A DNA stretch of 41,433 nt from a virus: IMG/VR virus record IMGVR_UViG_3300017732_000018, positions 1 through 41,433 of that record; one strand, given 5' to 3'. This document shows positions 2,647 through 31,244 of the stretch, piece by piece. Made by a program: the position numbers and the translations under genes. The notes under the pieces were generated by a model. It had not been told where the DNA came from and ran no database searches. It saw only the letters and a program-made list of their open reading frames with translations. Within the stretch, counting starts at the first letter, position 1. The number at the start of each line of letters is the position of its first letter.

Positions 2647-4770
2647 ATGCCCCTGACTAAACTCCAATTCCGTCCTGGGATTAATAAGGAAACTACCTCG
2701 TACTCTAACGAGGGTGGGTGGTTTGATATGGATAAGGTCAGGTTTCGTTACGGCTTTCCTGAAAAAGTAGGTGGTTGGGAAAAAACCTCTTCTACCTACT
2801 TTTTAGGAACATGTCGTGCTTTACACCCTTGGGTTTCTCTAGCGGGGGATCGATTTATAGGAGTAGGCACTCATCTTAAATATTATATTAATGAGGGTGG
2901 TGCGTATCAGGATGTAACTCCGATTAGACTTACGACCTCTGCCGGAGATGTAACGTTTAATGCTAGTGCAAATACTCTGTCGGCTTCTGTGGCAATTGGA
3001 GATACTTCTCTTGCTCTGACAAGTTCTTCAGGATTTCCCAGTGCAGGGGTTATTAAAATAAATAGTGAAATTATTCGTTATGCCAGTATCTCTGGAAATA
3101 GTCTTTTAGGTTTAGAGCGTGGGTTTGACAGCACTACAGAAGCAGCGCACTCTTCTTCTGCGGCTGTAACATGCGCAACTTTAACTGTAACAGACACAGC
3201 ACATGGTTGTGAGAACAATGACTTTGTTACCTTTTCAGGGACAGCAACTCTTGGTGATCAAATTACCGCTAATGTTTTAAACCAAGAGTATCAAATATCT
3301 TCCATTGTAAGTGATAACAGTTATTTAATCGAAGCCCGTGAAGTTGCTTCATTAAACTCAGTCACCACACCTGATGGGTACGATCCAACATATGTTTTCG
3401 CTACAACTTCCGACTCTGGAAACGGAGGTTCGTCTGTAGTAGGTGCGTACCAAATCAATACTGGGTTAGACACCACCCTTGGTGGTTCAGGATGGGGCGC
3501 AGGAACATGGGCCAGAGGTACTTGGGGAAGTGGGGCATCCATTTCTACTGCGGTAGATTCTCTTCGTATTTGGTCGCATGATAACTTTGGGGAAGATTTA
3601 CTTATAAATGTAAGAGATGGCGGCATATATTACTGGGACAAAAGCGCCAATGCGGGAGTTACGTTTGGTCGGGCTGTAGAGCTTTCAAGTTTAGGTGGAG
3701 CAAACACAACTCCAACTATCGCAAAAAAGGTTTTAGTTTCGGATCGGGACAGACATATTATCGCGTTTGGTTGTGATTCTGAGGATAATATTGGAACACA
3801 AGACCCCTTGTTAATTAGGTTTTCTAGTCAAGAATCTTTAACTGACTGGGCTTCTACTGCTACTAATACAGCGGGAGACTTGCGCATTGGCTCTGGCTCT
3901 GAGATTGTGACAGCCGTTGAAACAAGGCAACAAGTCCTTGTATTTACCGATGTGTCGCTCCATGCCATGCAGTTTTTGGGGCCACCATTTACATTTGGTA
4001 TTAATACTCTGTCAGAAAACATAACAATAGCGGGTCCACTTGCTGCTATTGCCATTGAGGACAATGTGTTTTGGATGGGGGCAGAAGAGTTTTATGTTTA
4101 TGGCGGTGCAGTTCAGCGTCTACCCTGTTCAGTAAGAGATTATGTATTTAGTGATATAAACTCAGACCAAATAGAAAAAGTTACAGCATCTACGAACACT
4201 GCTTTTTCTGAGATATGGTGGTTTTATCCTTCTTCTTCTAGCACTGAAAATGACCGTTATGTGGTTTATAATTACGAACAACAAATTTGGTACTATGGAA
4301 CACTAGCCCGTACTTGTTGGCTAGATAGAGGCGTGGAAACTTTTCCTATTGCTGCTTCTACGGATCATGCCTTGTATTATCACGAGTTAGGCACGGATGA
4401 CGGAAGTACGATTCCGGCCTCTGGTATTACTGCGTTTATTGAAAGCAGTCAGATGGACATAGGAGATGGGGATCAGTTCGTTTTCTTGAGACGACTAATA
4501 CCTGATATGACGTTTAGAGATAGTACAAATCAAACCCCTCAAGCGACAATGACTTTGAAAGCAAGGAATTATCCTGGTGGTGCGTACCTACAGACTAATA
4601 GTAAAACTGTAGAAAAAACAGCATCTGTTCCTGTAGAACAATTTACAGACCAAGTTAATGTAAGGCTTCGAGGGAGATCTTTTGCTTTTAAAATAGAAAC
4701 TACTGACACAGGTATTGCTTGGAGGTTAGGTTCTCCTCGTGTGGAAATACAGTCTGACGGGATGCGTTAA
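2647..4770 (+). CDS. Large virion structural protein (gp10-like / tail protein candidate)
   Basis: This 707-aa protein begins MPLTKLQFRPGINKETTSYS and continues with a segment on KVRFRYGFPEKVGGWEK. I associate this start with a virion protein of marine podoviruses annotated as tail or packaged-DNA-stabilisation (P22 gp10-like) protein. An insert around residues 95-230 is rich in small residues and contains an immunoglobulin-like or carbohydrate-binding-like stretch (ASVAIGDTSLALTSSSGFPS). The remainder is rich in aromatic beta strands (WWFYPSSS, YNYEQQIWYYGTLAR), as in a beta-propeller. Its stop codon shares one base with the next start. Assignment as a structural tail protein is fairly safe; the exact homology to gp10 is an inference from fold-like features. 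Confidence 0.7.
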   Translation: MPLTKLQFRPGINKETTSYSNEGGWFDMDKVRFRYGFPEKVGGWEKTSSTYFLGTCRALHPWVSLAGDRFIGVGTHLKYYINEGGAYQDVTPIRLTTSAGDVTFNASANTLSASVAIGDTSLALTSSSGFPSAGVIKINSEIIRYASISGNSLLGLERGFDSTTEAAHSSSAAVTCATLTVTDTAHGCENNDFVTFSGTATLGDQITANVLNQEYQISSIVSDNSYLIEAREVASLNSVTTPDGYDPTYVFATTSDSGNGGSSVVGAYQINTGLDTTLGGSGWGAGTWARGTWGSGASISTAVDSLRIWSHDNFGEDLLINVRDGGIYYWDKSANAGVTFGRAVELSSLGGANTTPTIAKKVLVSDRDRHIIAFGCDSEDNIGTQDPLLIRFSSQESLTDWASTATNTAGDLRIGSGSEIVTAVETRQQVLVFTDVSLHAMQFLGPPFTFGINTLSENITIAGPLAAIAIEDNVFWMGAEEFYVYGGAVQRLPCSVRDYVFSDINSDQIEKVTASTNTAFSEIWWFYPSSSSTENDRYVVYNYEQQIWYYGTLARTCWLDRGVETFPIAASTDHALYYHELGTDDGSTIPASGITAFIESSQMDIGDGDQFVFLRRLIPDMTFRDSTNQTPQATMTLKARNYPGGAYLQTNSKTVEKTASVPVEQFTDQVNVRLRGRSFAFKIETTDTGIAWRLGSPRVEIQSDGMR

Positions 4771-8484: not shown

Positions 8485-11400
8485 ATGGCTGACAAACAAC
8501 CAGTGTTTGATCCAAATGCTCCCTTTGAAGTCACTCTTCCTGATGAACCAGAAGAAAAAGGATCTTATCTCTCTGGGGATCAAGGACTTGTGCCTGATGT
8601 AGCAGAAGATATAGGCAAAGGTATATATTCTGGCGTCATATCTGTTCCACAAGGAATCTTGGAACTTGGTGCAATCGGAATAGACGGCGTTTTAAATACT
8701 AATACTGCGTCTGCTGTTACTGACGCCTTTGAATACATTAAACCAGAAATGGGTACAGCAGGAGACGTGACCGAAGATCTTGTAGCCTTTGGCGTAGGGT
8801 TCGTACCCGTCGTTGGATGGCTTGGTCGAGCAGGGCAAGCAGCAAAAGCTGTAAAGGCAGGTAAGACATTATCAAAAGCAGGAAGAACAAAATTTGGCAG
8901 GTCAGCGATAGATTTTGGATCGTCAAAGGTTGGTCAGACTCTTGTGGGTTCTCGTCCTGGGATGATTGGCTCAACTGCTGTAGGGGCATTGGGTTATAGT
9001 ACAGCAGTTGCTAGTGATGGTCGAACAACCCTATCTGATAACTTTGAGATTTTCCCTGATGCCTTAGAGACAGAAGAAGATGCAGGTCTAACGGGTCGTC
9101 AAGAAGCAGCGCGTAGGTTTCGTAACAAGCTCCGTTCTGGTGTAGAAGATATGTTTTTAAGTGGTACGGTTGACACCGCTCTTACTGTTGGAGGAGCAGG
9201 AATACGAGCCGTTGGTAGAACTGAGACAGGAGCGAAAGCAGCACGGGTCGTTAGCCAAGCTCCTAGTAGGGTCGCAGAAGGTATGGCTAAAGGTTTCGAT
9301 GCTATTGGCATGGGCGCAGTTAATGACAAGGCCAAAGGTGCAAGAGACTTGTTTCGAGAATACTTTACAGCGTCTGGTGGAGCAGATGTTAAACTGTATG
9401 AAACAGTTCAAGATGCTCGTGCCGTAGCTGACATGTCAGAACGTATGGGCGTAAAAGCAGCAGAGGACTTTGATAAAGCAAGCAAGAAGTTTTTGAAAGC
9501 CTCAAAGCTAAAAGATAAAACTCCCGTAGACGCACAGAAGGTACAAGCAGCACTTAACAAGTTTCTCTTGGGCAACCGCAAAGAGCTTGAAGCGATTGGT
9601 TCTGAGCAGATGATAAAGGCTGCGGACTCTATGATCGATGTTCGTGCTAATCTTCACGATGATATGATCAGGCAACTGCAAACAGAAATTGGAACTGACG
9701 CTAACGGTAAACTACTTACTCCTGATACCCCTGCAAAACAGAAAGCTGCTAAAGCACTAGAAGAGATGTTGCAGAATCAAAAGAATGAGGTTGGTTACTT
9801 ACGTCGTCAGTTCAATCAATACATCAATCCGATAAACTTTTACAAAGGGCTAGATCTTTCTTCCAAAGAGTTTGACGAAGCGGTTGATGAAGTTGCAAAC
9901 CTTATACCTATTCCAGAGGGAGGAGATATTACCAACCTTCGGGCGTTAGCCAAAGAAAGAGTTTTAGACACATTAGGTTTGTACACGACAACAGGTGTCT
10001 CTCCAGAAGTTGTGTTAAAGGACAAAATAAAACAAGTTACCAGAGAAGCCAAAGGAGGTAAAACAGGTCTTGTTGCAAGAGATCGTCCTGTTTTAACTGC
10101 CATGGATGATCTGTTTATAGCTCGTGAACCTTTAGTTGATAAGAGTCCTAAACTCCGAAAATTGAAAGGAGTGATGACAGATCCAATCGAGGTATACAAA
10201 AAAACCATATCCGATATGGCTCAAGCAAATGCAGCAGCCGATATGTATCGGGGGATGATTGATCAAGGTCTTGCTGTGGATGCAGTTGAGGGAATGAAAC
10301 GTTTAAATCAAGGGGGTCGCCCTGCAATCATAGACCTGCCTGATCCACTTCGTATGACGGATGACCAATACCAGAAAGCCATGGAGCCTTTTAGGGAGAT
10401 TGTCAGACAACGAGGCACACCAGGAACAGAAATATTAGACGATGCAGGAAACGTAAAATATACAACAAACGCTGCGGAAGATTTATTGGAACAATACCGT
10501 GCAGATCTAATAAACTTAAAAGGATACAAAGCTCTTGGAGATAGTCGGGACATCCAACATGTATTTGGTGGTGCCTATGGTGATTTGACAGGGAGATTGG
10601 TTTCTCCAGAAACATATGGTGCTATTACTGCTCCGTTGAAGTTTGGAAGCAATACTGTGTTGGGTGAGGCCGCAGGGATATTGTCTCAACTTCGTTCTTT
10701 GTCTCAGAAGATGACAATCGTACCAAATCCTGGAGCACAGGTTAGAAACATTGCAGGTAACTTTTTGATGCTTGGGGCCAATGCTAATTTAGGTCGGCAA
10801 ACAGATTTCAGTGACATGTTTAAGGTTCTTACTGCTAGTGTTGCAGACCTCGATGAAGCAGGACTCACTCGTTTAGCAAAGAAGATATCTTTGTCTGGTG
10901 TTGAGGACACCAGTTTAGTTGTTCGAGCGTTAAGAGAATTTGGAAAAGCAGGAGAAGATCTCACAAGCAATACCATGAAGGTTGCTAAGACCATTGATGT
11001 ATGGACGGATAAGATTCCCTTCATGCAGACTTTTGAAAAAGTATACGGTGAGTCAGACACCTTCTTCAAGGGTCTTGCTCTTCTTGGAGAAGAGAAAAAA
11101 ATCTTAAACGCATTCAAAGCAGCAAAGTTAGATCCTAGTGATGATCGTATTTACCAGGCGTTAATGGATGCAGGTCTTGCGAAACGATACAAAAGTGCAG
11201 TCACGGAGTTTGGAGATGCGTCCTCAGACCTACTGCCCTACGAGGTTATGGCAGCAGACGCGGTAAAAGACACGATGCCAATATATCCTCGTATTGGTAA
11301 AGCAGTAAGAGCATTGGATGTTTTTCCTTTAATTGGTAACTTTACCTCTTTTGCCTCAGAAAACATTCGTAACTCTGCTAATATTTTAGGTCGTGGATTA

Positions 11401-12897
11401 AAAGAAATGTCTTTTACAATCCCGCCAGAACTTAGACGAGAGATAGGAGAAGAAGCAGCCTCCGCATTTGAAAGACAGATAAGAGGTGAGGGTGCACAAC
11501 GATTGATGTCTTACACATCAGTGGCAACCATCGGTCCTTCTCAAGCAGTAAAAGCTTCCATGTATGCGACTGGTACAACACAAGAACAATACGATGCCAT
11601 GAAGAGTCAGTTGCCTCGTTACATGGACGGACATCAGTTAATCATGTTGTCCAATGATCAAAAAGGTAAGATGGACTACATCGATTTAAGTTATGTAAGT
11701 CCTTACGCTTTTGTTCTTGATCCTGCGAGAGCAGCCTTAGAAATATATGGGCGAGAGGGAAAACTAGACAAGAGTCAGATCGAACGCATTGGGTCAGGAG
11801 CCTTACGTGGATTGACTATGTTTGCAGAACCGTTTGGCGAGGAGTCTTTGATTTACGAAAGACTTAGAGATGTACTTCCCTCCAAAGATGCTCCACTTCT
11901 ATCCATTGTTGGTCGTGGTGGTAAAACACAAGATGGTGTGCCTGTGTATAACAGTACCGATTCTATTGGAGATAAAATTGATAAGGCTACGGGCCATTTA
12001 TTAAACGGTATTATACCTGCATACGCTCAATTAATTGGTGAAGTTGACAGACCTTTTTCTGTGACCACACCACGAGAAATACTCAACCAAGGTCGTGTGC
12101 TTCGATCAATCACAGGTGCACCTGGGGGTCGAGGAGAAGAGTACAAACCTTTTAAAGAAGGAGCACGTTTAGTCACGGGTTTTACACCTATGACCTTGGA
12201 CATTCGTAATGATTTTGCGTTCGCAGGAAAAGCTTATACGCCCCGTCGTACAGAAACAAAAAGTGCTGCTCAAAGAGACATGAAAAAAGGCAACCTCACA
12301 ATGGGGGATATGCTTACTTCTTGGGACACTTATCTAGACAACTTATATCGTGAGCAAAGTAATCTGTATCAAGACATCGAAGCTGCTAGAAAGTTAATGC
12401 CCGGATTAAGTAAGTCCAGACAAGACACAATAATTCGTCAGAATTTAACAAAGGGTGCAAAGTTAGGTAAGGCGGAAGCTAATGCTATAATGAACGGTGA
12501 GTTCTGGCCCACGGACGCAAGTAAAGAGTTGTGGAAAGATCTTATTGCTGCAAGAAAGGCAGAGGGCCGCACGTTCGTAACAGACATGTCTGACTTTTCT
12601 CCTTTTAACCAACGGTCAAGGGACCGTAGGCGACAGTCTTTGTCTCTTGATTCCCCAGATGAAGCACCTCGGGCTACGGTTCCTATTGTACCTACATTTG
12701 ATCCTTCTCAACCGTTTACGATTGAACCCCCCTCTCCCGTTCCGTCAGTGGCACCAACTTTTAATCCGTCGATGCCTTTCACAATAGAAACTCCTGCGGC
12801 TCCACCTGTTTCCGCTCCTTCGGCTCAAGTAGATCCCACACTTCTAGGTGGGGATCCCGCAACACAAGCTCTGGCTAAGTCTCTAGGAAGAGTATAG
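8485..12897 (+). CDS. Giant internal virion protein (1470 aa)
   Basis: A strong AAAGGAG site precedes the ATG and the gene starts two bases after the upstream stop. The N-terminal 130 residues contain Gly/Ala-rich hydrophobic segments (LVAFGVGFVPVVGWLG). The bulk is a long series of amphipathic helices, as in podoviral ejection proteins and large polyvalent proteins. The motif FDPNAPFEV near the N-terminus recurs twice at the C-terminus (FDPSQPFTIE and FNPSMPFTIE) inside a Pro-rich tail. I see no lysozyme or protease active site. It is the last gene of the rightward block, and its 3' end overlaps the oppositely oriented zinc-ribbon gene by 15 nt. A role in genome ejection is inferred from size, context and composition. 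Confidence 0.65.
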   Translation: MADKQPVFDPNAPFEVTLPDEPEEKGSYLSGDQGLVPDVAEDIGKGIYSGVISVPQGILELGAIGIDGVLNTNTASAVTDAFEYIKPEMGTAGDVTEDLVAFGVGFVPVVGWLGRAGQAAKAVKAGKTLSKAGRTKFGRSAIDFGSSKVGQTLVGSRPGMIGSTAVGALGYSTAVASDGRTTLSDNFEIFPDALETEEDAGLTGRQEAARRFRNKLRSGVEDMFLSGTVDTALTVGGAGIRAVGRTETGAKAARVVSQAPSRVAEGMAKGFDAIGMGAVNDKAKGARDLFREYFTASGGADVKLYETVQDARAVADMSERMGVKAAEDFDKASKKFLKASKLKDKTPVDAQKVQAALNKFLLGNRKELEAIGSEQMIKAADSMIDVRANLHDDMIRQLQTEIGTDANGKLLTPDTPAKQKAAKALEEMLQNQKNEVGYLRRQFNQYINPINFYKGLDLSSKEFDEAVDEVANLIPIPEGGDITNLRALAKERVLDTLGLYTTTGVSPEVVLKDKIKQVTREAKGGKTGLVARDRPVLTAMDDLFIAREPLVDKSPKLRKLKGVMTDPIEVYKKTISDMAQANAAADMYRGMIDQGLAVDAVEGMKRLNQGGRPAIIDLPDPLRMTDDQYQKAMEPFREIVRQRGTPGTEILDDAGNVKYTTNAAEDLLEQYRADLINLKGYKALGDSRDIQHVFGGAYGDLTGRLVSPETYGAITAPLKFGSNTVLGEAAGILSQLRSLSQKMTIVPNPGAQVRNIAGNFLMLGANANLGRQTDFSDMFKVLTASVADLDEAGLTRLAKKISLSGVEDTSLVVRALREFGKAGEDLTSNTMKVAKTIDVWTDKIPFMQTFEKVYGESDTFFKGLALLGEEKKILNAFKAAKLDPSDDRIYQALMDAGLAKRYKSAVTEFGDASSDLLPYEVMAADAVKDTMPIYPRIGKAVRALDVFPLIGNFTSFASENIRNSANILGRGLKEMSFTIPPELRREIGEEAASAFERQIRGEGAQRLMSYTSVATIGPSQAVKASMYATGTTQEQYDAMKSQLPRYMDGHQLIMLSNDQKGKMDYIDLSYVSPYAFVLDPARAALEIYGREGKLDKSQIERIGSGALRGLTMFAEPFGEESLIYERLRDVLPSKDAPLLSIVGRGGKTQDGVPVYNSTDSIGDKIDKATGHLLNGIIPAYAQLIGEVDRPFSVTTPREILNQGRVLRSITGAPGGRGEEYKPFKEGARLVTGFTPMTLDIRNDFAFAGKAYTPRRTETKSAAQRDMKKGNLTMGDMLTSWDTYLDNLYREQSNLYQDIEAARKLMPGLSKSRQDTIIRQNLTKGAKLGKAEANAIMNGEFWPTDASKELWKDLIAARKAEGRTFVTDMSDFSPFNQRSRDRRRQSLSLDSPDEAPRATVPIVPTFDPSQPFTIEPPSPVPSVAPTFNPSMPFTIETPAAPPVSAPSAQVDPTLLGGDPATQALAKSLGRV

Positions 12898-16634: not shown

Positions 16635-16857
16635 CTTTTTGCACACCCTTCGGACGAGCATGGAGCCAGTTCAATACGTCAGTCTCATACCAACGAACTG
16701 CACTACGCTTACCGTCTTCTTGTCCCAGAACCACAGGTTCGGGAAACTTCCCCTCATCGACCCACCTATAGACAGTGGCTCTCGAGATACTCAATAAAGA
16801 ACAAACTTCTTTGAGCCTCATTAACTGCGGATTATCCGCATCAGAATGGGATATCAT
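16624..16857 (-). CDS. AlpA/MerR-like helix-turn-helix protein
   Basis: This 77-aa protein contains LKEVCSLLSISRATVYRWVD followed by GKFPEPVVLG and a WYETDVLNWL tail, the pattern of the AlpA / excisionase-like winged HTH family. AAAGGAG lies 6 nt before the ATG, inside the end of the primase gene. It overlaps both neighbours. Proteins of this type act as transcription regulators or excisionases; with no integrase in the window, a regulatory or replication-accessory role fits better. Confidence 0.9.
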   Translation of the reverse strand: MISHSDADNPQLMRLKEVCSLLSISRATVYRWVDEGKFPEPVVLGQEDGKRSAVRWYETDVLNWLHARPKGVQKDDS

Positions 16858-18379
16858 ATTTTTCTCCTTTGATATCGATATCTACGTCTAAGTTTTCAAA
16901 CACAGGAACCCACCAGACCCTCGTGGTGCTACGTTTACCATCTTCTTTGGTGTAGTTGAGTTTCCCATGACACTCCTGCCCCTCGTTCAAACGCTGAATG
17001 TGCTCTTGTATTCTCCCAGTTGTAAAGTGAGTGAAATCATTGTTGCGTAAGAACTTCTCCAATGCATCGATACGAAACATTGTCTTCCCCTTGTCCGTCC
17101 ATGGCTTACCAGACAGAACTTCTTCTGGTGCCACGGCCCTGATGTGGCTTGTGCAGAATTTACGCAGCAGGTTTTGGAACTGCCCTGCCCTTGTAAGCTC
17201 TGGTGCTACTTCCTGTTTCGTTGCTGTGTTTAACATGCTGTTGATTAACTGTTGCCAGTCCATACGCTTCGGAACTGGAGGCATCATATCCAACTGCTCC
17301 ATACATGCCTTTTGCCACAGCGTAGGGTTTTGTAGTTGATCCGTTGAAAGCGTTAGGCTTTTCCCTTCCACGCTCATAAAATAAAGTCTGGGTTCGGAGA
17401 GCATGATAGTAATACCGCTTATCTGTGCTTGATCCTCAGTGCTCGAACCTATGCCAAACTTCTGCATCTTACACTTAGCCTTGTTGCAGTAGTCCCTCAA
17501 AGGAGTTTGATTGCACTGGTAGAAGTAGCCATCCTTTTTCTTCAGCGACTTCTGTTGATCGACAATCTCCTTCGATCCCAACGGTGGATCACAGAGCAGC
17601 CTGTTGTATTCTTCATGGTGCTCCTCCCAATCGTCAGGCCATTTGTTCTTACAGTACACACCTATGTTAAACATAAGAATGTTTCGATTGTCTGTAATCT
17701 TGCCCATGGATGCGAGGATCTGCAAACAAACAGGACCATCCTCAAAGTATTCTCGAGACCCACTGAAATCTATTTCTTGAACAGTAGCCATCGAAACTTT
17801 AATCTTCTCCGCCAGATCCAAGAACTCTTCTACCTCGAGAGCTTCCATCTTCTCATTGTACGCATATCTAGTAGGCATCTCAGATTTAAAATATGGAATG
17901 TTAATCCCATTGCCCACTTCCCCATCCTTGTCGTTTATTATCTCCTGTGCAGGAAACAATTCTCCTGATCCGCTGAAGCCCAACGCTGACCGCATCTCTG
18001 TCAAAGATTCTCGAACCAAGGCACAGGATTCCCAGTCTTGCAGAAACAAATACAAATGTGCACCGCCTGACTTGGATCGACAATGGACAAGCGGTAACTT
18101 CAACCTGCGTATGTTAGCCTGTAAGGACTTGTGGTCTAGGTCATACACATCGATATCAATCACACCAAACTTACAGACATTTCCAGAAGCAATAGGCACG
18201 ATACCTACACCACTGTCTCCATCTAGATGTTGCTGCACTATGTTCTCTGTGACCTGACCATGCACAGTTCTATACTCTGCTTCAGTCTTGCCCTTGTGAC
18301 CTCTGCCCTTGACCATAGTAACAAGATATCCTGCACTCGATCCCTCGAACACTGACATCATTCTTGTAGCTACTGACAT
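16841..18379 (-). CDS. Archaeo-eukaryotic type (AEP) primase, TOTE-like
   Basis: This 512-aa protein has the AEP catalytic pair in FGVIDIDVYD (D75, D77) and the following HCRSKSGGAHLYLF segment (residue ~99 on), which matches the sxH-like and basic motifs of TOTE-type primases. A cysteine-containing segment follows around residues 285-310 (FYQCNQTPLRDYCNKAKCKM), likely a zinc-binding element. The C-terminal third has no recognised motif and ends in KYDIPF, similar to an SSB tip. It makes primers for the PolA enzyme. A separate terminator separates it from the upstream SSB-like gene, so it may be transcribed partly from its own promoter or by read-through. Confidence 0.88.
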   Translation of the reverse strand: MSVATRMMSVFEGSSAGYLVTMVKGRGHKGKTEAEYRTVHGQVTENIVQQHLDGDSGVGIVPIASGNVCKFGVIDIDVYDLDHKSLQANIRRLKLPLVHCRSKSGGAHLYLFLQDWESCALVRESLTEMRSALGFSGSGELFPAQEIINDKDGEVGNGINIPYFKSEMPTRYAYNEKMEALEVEEFLDLAEKIKVSMATVQEIDFSGSREYFEDGPVCLQILASMGKITDNRNILMFNIGVYCKNKWPDDWEEHHEEYNRLLCDPPLGSKEIVDQQKSLKKKDGYFYQCNQTPLRDYCNKAKCKMQKFGIGSSTEDQAQISGITIMLSEPRLYFMSVEGKSLTLSTDQLQNPTLWQKACMEQLDMMPPVPKRMDWQQLINSMLNTATKQEVAPELTRAGQFQNLLRKFCTSHIRAVAPEEVLSGKPWTDKGKTMFRIDALEKFLRNNDFTHFTTGRIQEHIQRLNEGQECHGKLNYTKEDGKRSTTRVWWVPVFENLDVDIDIKGEKYDIPF

Positions 18380-29661: not shown

Positions 29662-29815
29662 TTGATTTCTCCTCTGTTGACTGTTTGACTGCTAGGTTGA
29701 AACCCCTAGCAGCCGCTTCGCGTAGTCGTGGTCGATCACTCTCCTTGTGTCGAGTGATCCACGTTCGCAACTCATCCCAAGACTTGGGTATTGGAAATGT
29801 TTTGATATACTTCAA
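29654..29815 (-). CDS. 53-aa protein with TTG start
   Basis: The TTG at 29815-29813 overlaps the upstream stop as TTGA, and AGGAGG lies just before it. The product (KYIKTFPIPKSWDELRTWIT then ARGFNLAVKQ) is a helical basic protein. Without an ATG it would be missed by ATG-only gene finding. No family is recognised. Confidence 0.6.
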   Translation of the reverse strand: MKYIKTFPIPKSWDELRTWITRHKESDRPRLREAAARGFNLAVKQSTEEKSND

Positions 29816-30063
29816 GAAGCCTCCTTTACTTCTGGGTAAGTGATCACGTCGTCCGTATATGTTGAACGATTCTCAACACGGCTCAGGCTCTCTTGAATCA
29901 TGACCCGTCGCCCTGTGATCAGTTGGCTCAACAACTTACGATCTGCTGAGTATTCACTATGTGGACCAGTCTTCATGATAGCCTGGATACAGATATCAAG
30001 ATCCTCTTGTGTGAAATCGAATTGACCTGTGATCTGGGTGTTAGTGTAAGATAATTTAGCCAT
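29812..30063 (-). CDS. First gene of the second leftward operon
   Basis: The ATG at 30063 follows AAAAGGAG by 7 nt. The 83-aa product contains GQFDFTQEDLDICIQAIMKT and SADRKLLSQLITGRRVMIQE, a helical protein. Function unknown. It faces the palindrome-rich intergenic region. Confidence 0.7.
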   Translation of the reverse strand: MAKLSYTNTQITGQFDFTQEDLDICIQAIMKTGPHSEYSADRKLLSQLITGRRVMIQESLSRVENRSTYTDDVITYPEVKEAS

Positions 30064-30412
30064 GGTGGGCTCCTTTTTGAACACGCTCGACGGAATTGTC
30101 GTTCGATGTGTCAAGTTACTAGCGGATCAAAGGATCGTGCCGTCGGTGCTCTTGCATCGTCGGGAATCGTCAAGGAAGTTTAGTGAAGCGGCGGTTTACG
30201 TCACGTCATCGGTTCTGGATGTGCACGTCACTTTGCACTTTCTAGCAAAGTGTACGTCACGTACAGGTTCGCATGATGTTTCGTAATCCGTAAACTTTCG
30301 ACCCCTTCTTCAGGGGTTGACGACACATCCTTTGATAACGCCATGCGGCTTGAGCACCATCCGTACGGCTATTTTGTTGTGTGTGTAGCAACAGGCGCAC
30401 GTACACGGACTG

Positions 30413-30491
30413 AACAATCTCTTAGAGGCTCCGCTCGTTCCTAAAAAAGGCTGACTGCTATTCAGACTTTTTTCGAGTGGAGAAGATTGTT
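30413..30491. other. Nested long stem structure
   Basis: Three nested stems share one axis: AACAATCT (30413-30420) with AGATTGTT (30484-30491); CTCCGCTCG with CGAGTGGAG (30429-30437 with 30474-30482, one G-U pair); and AAAAAAG-G-CTGA with TCAG-A-CTTTTTT around a 7-nt loop (30443-30473, one mismatch). The A/T tracts of the inner stem give a terminator-like element in both directions. The whole could be a structured RNA or an origin hairpin. Confidence 0.75.
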
Positions 30492-30932
30492 TGCCGTGGA
30501 CAGCGCAAGGATCCGGGTGCACCACCACTCTCAAACATCGATCCAACGGATGTTTCCGTTGGTCCATTTTCTGTTGGGATACAGACACGGGCCGAAGGAC
30601 CGTTGCGATAGCCGAGGAACGAGGGAACGATACTCACCCGTAAGGGCCGAGACTACTACAGGCTCGGTTCATGAGTAGCGCGGTCATCGCCATAAAGCAT
30701 TTGTTCCCACCAAAAAATAAAAGGTTGAGACCTAAATTTTTCTAGATAATCCTAGACACCCCGGAGGTATAGAAACAGCTTACCCAGGACATAGGACCGA
30801 GATTGCAATACACCTTTGTAAATTACAGGCAATAGGGGTTACTGTGGCGAAAGCGGTATGACATTTTGTACGGACCGAGACCCCCACACCCCCTTATTTG
30901 TGGTACGTCTCCTGTGTGTGCGCCCTATAATG

Positions 30933-30961
30933 TTGGTTTTGTAAAATCATTCGTGTATAAT
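30933..30961 (+). promoter_or_regulatory. Sigma70-like promoter of the late operon
   Basis: TTGGTT (30933-30938), 17 nt, TATAAT (30956-30961). The expected start is about 15-20 nt before the ribosome-binding site of the HNH-like gene at 30990. The -10 box is perfect and the spacing ideal, so it should be read by host RNA polymerase. Confidence 0.7.
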
Positions 30962-30989
30962 ACCGTTTAAGAACAGAAGGAGAACATCC

Positions 30990-31244
30990 ATGGCCCGAGA
31001 TTATAGGTCCGAGTACGACAACTACCATTCGTCCCCGAAGCAGAAGAAGAACCGAGCAGCGAGGAACGCGGCCCGTGCAGCTATGGTTAAGAGGAAAAGG
31101 GTCAAGAAGGGTGATGGGAAGGACGTGACGCATAAGGATGGTAATCCGAGGAATAACGGGGAGGGCAATTTGGGTGTATTGTCTAGGAGCAAGAACCGCA
31201 GTTTCAAACGGACGAAGAGGGCGAAGAAGGCTCAAATTCACTGA
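30990..31244 (+). CDS. Small basic HNH-like protein
   Basis: The 84-aa product begins MARDYRSEYDNYHSSPKQKK, is very basic, and has VTHKDGNPRNNGEGNLGV, which resembles the HNH nuclease core (H-x-DGN-x(2)-NN-x(3)-NL). The last His of the HNH motif is not evident at its usual place (SRSKNRSFKRTK follows), so catalysis is doubtful. It is preceded by AAGGAG. Similar proteins are common near terminase genes in marine phages, where HNH proteins assist packaging. This one may be DNA-binding only. Confidence 0.75.
   Translation: MARDYRSEYDNYHSSPKQKKNRAARNAARAAMVKRKRVKKGDGKDVTHKDGNPRNNGEGNLGVLSRSKNRSFKRTKRAKKAQIH

Follow-up and report, generated by a model that had tools for sequence, protein, structure and literature searches.

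The intergenic spacer of an uncultured tailed phage contains an extensive fold on its + strand whose parts, named here arm D, module A and module B, are preserved by compensatory changes, and module B is the same element as one carried by the conjugative plasmid F and by Microviridae. We propose with moderate confidence that the nested stem described below is an arm of a folded single-stranded-DNA (ssDNA) initiation region of the Frpo or ssi type, from which leftward primer or RNA synthesis would start toward the early replication genes.

Genomic context of the folded spacer

The window, i.e. the whole stretch of 41,433 nucleotides that was analysed (IMG/VR record IMGVR_UViG_3300017732_000018), is a 41.4-kb virus contig whose terminase is 58.7-61.2% identical to the terminases of pelagiphage HTVC027P and phage 023Pt_psg01; the host of the stem is an uncultured tailed phage. 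A spacer without genes separates a leftward gene starting at 30063 from a rightward gene starting at 30990 (Table 1). The leftward operon encodes PolA, a UvrD-type helicase and an AEP-type primase, and the terminase and portal are among the rightward genes. The first-pass annotation had placed the stem in a gene-free region, which agrees with these divergent genes and with the lack of support for the sole listed ORF across the stem (30310-30588, minus strand, 92 aa, GTG start).

The promoter of the rightward genes scores under the cut-off of the promoter scan, and its block is kept across the phage family, including loci that lack the folded region, with the pattern present in 38 IMG/VR stretches. 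No sigma70-type promoter was seen by the duplex promoter scan on the minus strand of 30064-30700, and a tRNA search found none near the spacer. Anti-defence genes were sought in the leftward operon: PADLOC reported none in 7 proteins and Pfam no such family in 10. Just past the spacer, a small basic 84-aa gene (30990-31241) has a weak HNH-type match and relatives in 190 IMG/VR stretches. At the far left of the window, a 702-aa protein (29-2137) combines NTAVGY-type repeats with a SDYRLKENV-type C-terminal part and, judged by eye, resembles a trimeric adhesin head with an intramolecular chaperone.

Table 1. Positions in the window of the folded elements and of the flanking genes and promoter
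Feature	Position	Strand	Basis
Nested stems of 8, 9 and 12 bp (inner part of arm D)	30413..30491	+	Letters; RNA and DNA folds
Whole arm D	30393..30511	+	Folds and compensatory changes (8 and 4 sequences)
Module A: H-type pseudoknot and two hairpins	30529..30613	+	Covariation, 17 sequences
Module B: three-way junction	30619..30681	+	Covariance model, 58-element alignment
5' domain: single long folded arm with ACACGC / TGTGTGT closure	30080..30385	+	Fold; swapped in relatives
3' part of spacer, conserved in close relatives	30690..30905	+	Relatives' alignments
Leftward gene nearest the spacer (83 aa), without a family	29815..30063	-	ORF list, family searches
Archaeo-eukaryotic-type primase, leftward operon	16844..18379	-	PF22548; phrog_21866 primase
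Sigma70-like promoter TTGGTT-17-TATAAT for rightward genes, outside the fold	30939..30967	+	Conserved in relatives

The nested stem is the inner part of a conserved arm

Reading of the letters gives exactly the pairing first noted: an outer stem of 8 bp (AACAATCT at 30413-30420 with AGATTGTT at 30484-30491), a middle stem of 9 bp with one G-T pair (CTCCGCTCG at 30429-30437 with CGAGTGGAG at 30474-30482) and an inner stem of 12 bp with one mismatch (AAAAAAGGCTGA at 30443-30454 with TCAGACTTTTTT at 30462-30473). All three stems are held by the minimum-energy fold with RNA parameters (z -3.73) as well as with DNA parameters (z -6.55), and in both cases 0 of 200 shuffles was as good. When the contig was scanned with DNA parameters in 207 windows of 200 nt, with 40 shuffles each, 30401-30600 came out first (z -4.73), with 30201-30400 in fourth place. 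The opinion that such a stem is too extensive for chance is thus well founded. Its extent had been underestimated: the stem is real, and it continues outward through helix P-a and a GCGC clamp to the limits of arm D, itself one arm of a gene-free region of about 620 nt (roughly 30080-30700) that is dense with folds.

Arm D comprises the GCGC clamp, helix P-a, an ACTGA internal loop, helix P-b, an AGAGG loop, helix P-c and an apical arm; the AGAGG loop is conserved and the apical arm is variable. The covariation in relatives that had been proposed as a check is present in both sets of sequences. In helix P-c, all 64 cells from eight sequences are paired, with 7 double-change cells against 2.1 in shuffles that ignore the kinship of the sequences. 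Over the whole arm, the four closest sequences, which amount to two pairs of near relatives, are paired in 98.1% of 108 cells, with 14 double-change cells against 6.6 in shuffles of the same kind. In slid controls, pairing fell to 33-57% for P-c and to 27-47% for arm D in the four sequences. Six of eight sequences keep the G-T pair of arm D. Only the 83% relative shares the A6/T6 apical stem, and the apical arms of other relatives differ.

Module A is built on a CCAACGG/CCGTTGG pseudoknot with covarying loop pairing. Among 17 sequences, 95.6% of cells are paired and 39 carry double changes, against 14.2 in shuffles that again take no account of kinship; the pseudoknot strand pairs in 86.3% of cells, with two-sided changes at all three counted pairs, and slid controls brought pairing down to 25-41%. 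So far, neither arm D nor module A has been seen outside the phage group of the window, the plasmid matches listed covering module B only. For arm D, a role in a start region would be argued from its location, with the gene start on one side and module B on the other as for the A/T-tract nested stem of plasmid F, and not from homology.

The spacer is assembled from interchangeable domains

Folded as RNA, 30080-30915 (836 nt; 20 shuffles per strand) has a z of -7.64 on the + strand and -3.91 on the - strand; folded as DNA, 30080-30700 has z values of -11.0 and -8.34 for the two strands (20 shuffles each). Folding of 30801-31000 is not unusual. The + strand gave the better fold in 12/12 relatives with arm D and in most spacers (22/26 with RNA and 23/26 with DNA parameters); coding controls favour the + strand in 24/24 cases, so that fold energy is uninformative on the strand and its use as strand evidence was dropped.

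Relatives in IMG/VR hold parts of the spacer in differing combinations. Long matches of about 82-83% are present in L085 and L005, while L082 is 98.7% identical from 30619 rightward only, with other folded sequence on the left, and the matches of L083 and L084 start only at about 30533. Motif maps, drawn for 73 of 80 loci, reveal several mutually exclusive 5' domains before the same 3' part. In the spacers of L082, L085 and L125, stem tips carry a repeated, small hairpin whose loop is of the GAGCCACTGCAC type and which resembles a mobile mini-hairpin; an example lies on the minus strand of L082 around 3177-4050. The divergent spacer of HTVC027P (12177-12724) is strongly folded (z -5.16/-4.32) without module B, and may hold another kind of folded region.

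Module B has the features of a stable DNA fold

The alignment of module B was made from 75 elements, reduced to 57 by removal of near-duplicates, plus that of the window. In these 58 elements, 97.5% of 754 cells are paired, both sides vary in 7 of 13 pairs, and double-change cells number 103 against 32 in shuffles. G-U pairs occupy 3 of 735 paired cells; structural RNAs usually have many more. Apical loops are of the type C-GNA-G (41/58) or C-GNNA-G (15/58), with two others, and the single GNRA loop among them is the GTAA of the window's own B. GNNA loops are a rule of stable DNA hairpins. A passage in PMC6479982, citing Yoshizawa 1997, describes GNA triloops as extraordinarily stable DNA minihairpins. 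The loops and the near-absence of G-U pairs in B form the pattern of stable DNA hairpins and speak against RNA.

The covariance model recovers B in the window with 47.4 bits (E 1.4e-9), a match partly built in, as are those of other members, the window's B being a row of the model alignment. It also matches pWW0, plasmids of E. albertii and K. pneumoniae, and two Microviridae. In the phage family of the window, for which 80 loci were searched, B is on the + strand in 29/29 positive loci, as a single copy at a fixed place; it is missing from the other 51, many of which are incomplete or lack the region. A second B on the opposite strand of the window was represented by weak matches only (7.4 bits at best). 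The model gave 0 matches in L064, a relative with arm D, and did not find B in the whole records of HTVC027P, HTVC023P, 023Pt_psg01, DSL-LC04 and ColIb-P9. Since the last is a plasmid with known ssDNA promoters, that function can do without B. In the titles and abstract openings covered by our literature search, there was no description of module B or of tailed phages with Frpo-like regions, and the words noncoding, non-coding, intergenic and ncRNA are absent from two pelagiphage papers.

Module B is shared with conjugative plasmids, Microviridae and other tailed phages

A pattern search for B matched 11 bacterial contigs, and a composite query matched 62 plasmid records. With L107:1930-2330 as query, 3264 plasmid records were matched and, among the matches listed, the alignment lies in B only; the F copy of B matched 4216 plasmid records out of 72556, and 3259 of these are called conjugative. 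The 61-position model of B (R1) places the copies outside annotated genes in most of the plasmid matches listed. Plasmid F has two copies (71.5 and 66.4 bits), both on the minus strand, in two blocks that are 89% identical over 559 nt and end just before ssb (58643) and an ORF at 64032. The minus strand leads away from oriT into the leading region, and from the gene layout, with that region left of traM, and from what is known of F transfer, we take it to be the one transferred 5' first. According to passages in PMC9849209, ssbF is preceded by Frpo2 and ygeA/ygeB by Frpo1; the two are 92% identical, and both are ssDNA promoters required for early expression. Sites like Frpo are reported across leading regions in PMC11541004. 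By their place and identity, the two F blocks are probably the Frpo1 and Frpo2 regions.

Plasmid regions with several copies of B have them in the same direction (F 2/2, pWW0 3/3, E. albertii 3/3, and two clusters of 2 in K. pneumoniae). In bacterial mobile elements B lies upstream of anti-restriction genes: at eight bacterial or plasmid loci, a count that leaves out L211, L212, L215, L219 and L225, its leftward neighbour is ArdC (2), ArdA (2), DUF2958, a DNA methylase, ParD or ParA (1 each). Gene strands around B were also tallied (71 places, the left gene on - in 45 and on + in 26) and dropped, spurious ORFs making the count too noisy.

Searches by blastn with the L142 and L103 regions matched non-coding stretches of two Microviridae, and a further IMG/VR scan for B returned 87 stretches. 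B is located between genes, on the genome (coding) strand, in all three Microviridae-type genomes (KT264808, MH572438 and L272). A terminator and a promoter read by eye around B in MH572438 were unsupported by the scan.

Copies of B less than 700 nt apart in other tailed phages, some members being weak matches (E up to 0.001), are arranged as (-)(+) in 23/26 cases, (+)(-) in 2 and (+)(+) in 1. In L235, copies at 4350-4434 (-) and 4687-4769 (+) frame one small ORF, an HNH endonuclease; in Sphingopyxis phage VSN-002 (L307), copies in the 8566 region (-) and at 9001-9073 (+) lie around a small ORF of no assigned function. Such pairs possibly correspond to two start sites on opposite strands, or else to a mobile cassette with B ends. 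A telomere had been considered for VSN-002 on account of its 'telomere resolvase' label and was rejected: PF16684 occurs in 0/32 records, no long palindrome was found, and the labelled protein (L307 9498-10613, MZ127829) belongs to the phage integrase family by Pfam.

A putative ssDNA start region

The ssDNA reading is founded on the presence of B on the transferred strand of F, on the genome strand of Microviridae and on the + strand in all positive loci of the window's family, together with its neighbouring genes in bacteria and plasmids, its few G-U pairs and its GNA loops. The strong DNA fold of the region, the lack of a sigma70-type promoter for leftward transcription in the duplex scan, and the replication genes of the leftward operon also favour it. 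During entry, replication or strand displacement, the + strand of 30080-30700 would be exposed as a single strand and would fold into a chain of domains, namely the 5' arm, arm D, pseudoknot A and three-way junction B. The folded strand could then act as template for host RNA polymerase or primase, and the RNA would run leftward into the early replication operon as primer, transcript or both, the 83-aa gene being the first that it would meet. The primase of the leftward operon is a candidate partner of the folded region. Strand exposure in this phage, the start of RNA in the region and the enzyme are what we infer, as is the participation of arm D, which might instead be a spacer or a protein-binding arm. 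An ssDNA phase is not known for this tailed phage, which counts against the ssDNA reading, and no Frpo-type -35/-10 boxes were found in the stems with a duplex promoter scan. Further points against it are the variable apical arm and kept G-T pair of arm D, the confinement of arm D and module A, so far, to this phage group, the lack of B in some relatives with arm D and in ColIb-P9, and the dissimilarity of B to the G4 origin. Among the roles offered by the first-pass annotation, the origin hairpin is the closest guess: a module is indeed shared with the single-strand initiation or ssDNA-promoter regions of plasmids and with ssDNA phages.

Our findings suggest that unrelated mobile elements share a way of starting copying or reading from one DNA strand. 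A bolder view, which we find conceivable and would put forward only tentatively, is that B is a general 'start here' ssDNA signal in conjugative plasmids and ssDNA phages as well as in several tailed dsDNA phage groups, and that in the window's family a B-centred array of interchangeable ssDNA domains launches the early operon before or during duplex copying. To our knowledge, such launch from one strand is known in no tailed phage of this kind. If the ssDNA reading is right, the same folded DNA element would serve conjugative plasmids, Microviridae and tailed phages, and looking for the partner that binds it (RNA polymerase, host PriA or DnaG, phage primase) would become a general rather than a plasmid-specific task. 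A direct test for single-strand promoters in tailed phages would also be at hand.

Alternative explanations

A large structured non-coding RNA, already among the first suggestions made for the stem, was our working view until B was found in plasmids and Microviridae, and has since been demoted to a rival that we regard as rather unlikely. It would be transcribed from the + strand over about 600-830 nt, its 3' half conserved and its 5' domains exchangeable, in the manner of GOLLD and ROOL. The extensive covarying fold with its pseudoknot, the RNA z of -7.64 over 836 nt and the G-U pair conserved in helix P-c all suit such a molecule, and so does the division into variable 5' and conserved 3' parts, which a passage in PMC12286853 reports for GOLLD. 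However, Rfam covariance-model searches found no family match, the window having none at the gathering score, eight relatives none at E<=1, and one chance match appearing at E 3.6; nor is there a tRNA nearby. B itself, nearly without G-U pairs and with GNA rather than GNRA loops, argues against an RNA. It also occurs in phages with ssDNA genomes and, in plasmids, on the strand that is transferred, and a stronger z was obtained with DNA than with RNA parameters, both for the arm and for the region (the latter compared over stretches of different length).

The exchange of whole 5' domains between near-identical relatives (L082) and the (-)(+) pairs of B around one small ORF, e.g. an HNH endonuclease, in 23/26 cases from other tailed phages would also be explained if B, and perhaps the whole cluster, were the end or recombination site of a small mobile cassette, recognised as folded ssDNA like attC or IS ends, the domain swapping being a trace of its mobility. 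We consider this improbable, since plasmid copies within one region share their direction, the window's family has a single B at a fixed place, and no recombinase was linked to B. Still less probable is a double-stranded origin, or a region bound by a regulator, with the inverted repeats working as cruciforms or as pairs of protein sites: the position between divergent operons and next to replication genes would be appropriate, but double changes preserve pairing while the sequence varies, loops are conserved and not arms alone, and the pseudoknot of module A requires a single strand. As for the two-way terminator once proposed for the stem, the A6/T6 tracts of the inner stem recall one, yet these tracts are not conserved, the flanking genes diverge and leave no convergent genes to serve, and the scan finds no intrinsic terminator, i.e. 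GC stem followed by a T run, there; we give this explanation almost no credit.

Comparison with known systems

The window resembles the ornate RNAs GOLLD and ROOL in its phage location, size class and combination of a conserved 3' part with a variable 5' part, and differs from them by its DNA-like loops, the few G-U pairs in B, and the lack of an Rfam match or tRNA cluster. With ssi sites and complementary-strand origins, the ssDNA start region proposed here shares the principle of a folded site on a single strand, B being located on the Microviridae genome strand between genes; the complementary-strand origin of phage G4 has no resemblance to B, either in a model search of its record (L305) or when its letters were read. 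RSF1010 carries ssiA and ssiB, which the opposite-strand B pairs of other tailed phages may recall.

A close parallel is with Frpo1 and Frpo2 of the F leading region. The window differs in belonging to a tailed phage with dsDNA, in which no strand is transferred; counterparts of its arm D and module A were not seen in F, nor were -35/-10 boxes identified. The orientation would be equivalent, the + strand of the window being folded and the genes running leftward on the - strand. In each of the two, early genes are preceded by a long folded spacer on what is, or in the window would be, the template strand, and the folded region of the window is stable as an ssDNA fold with DNA parameters. Module B is present in both F blocks and in the window, and the order of elements on that strand is similar, with a gene start, a nested stem with A/T tracts and then B.
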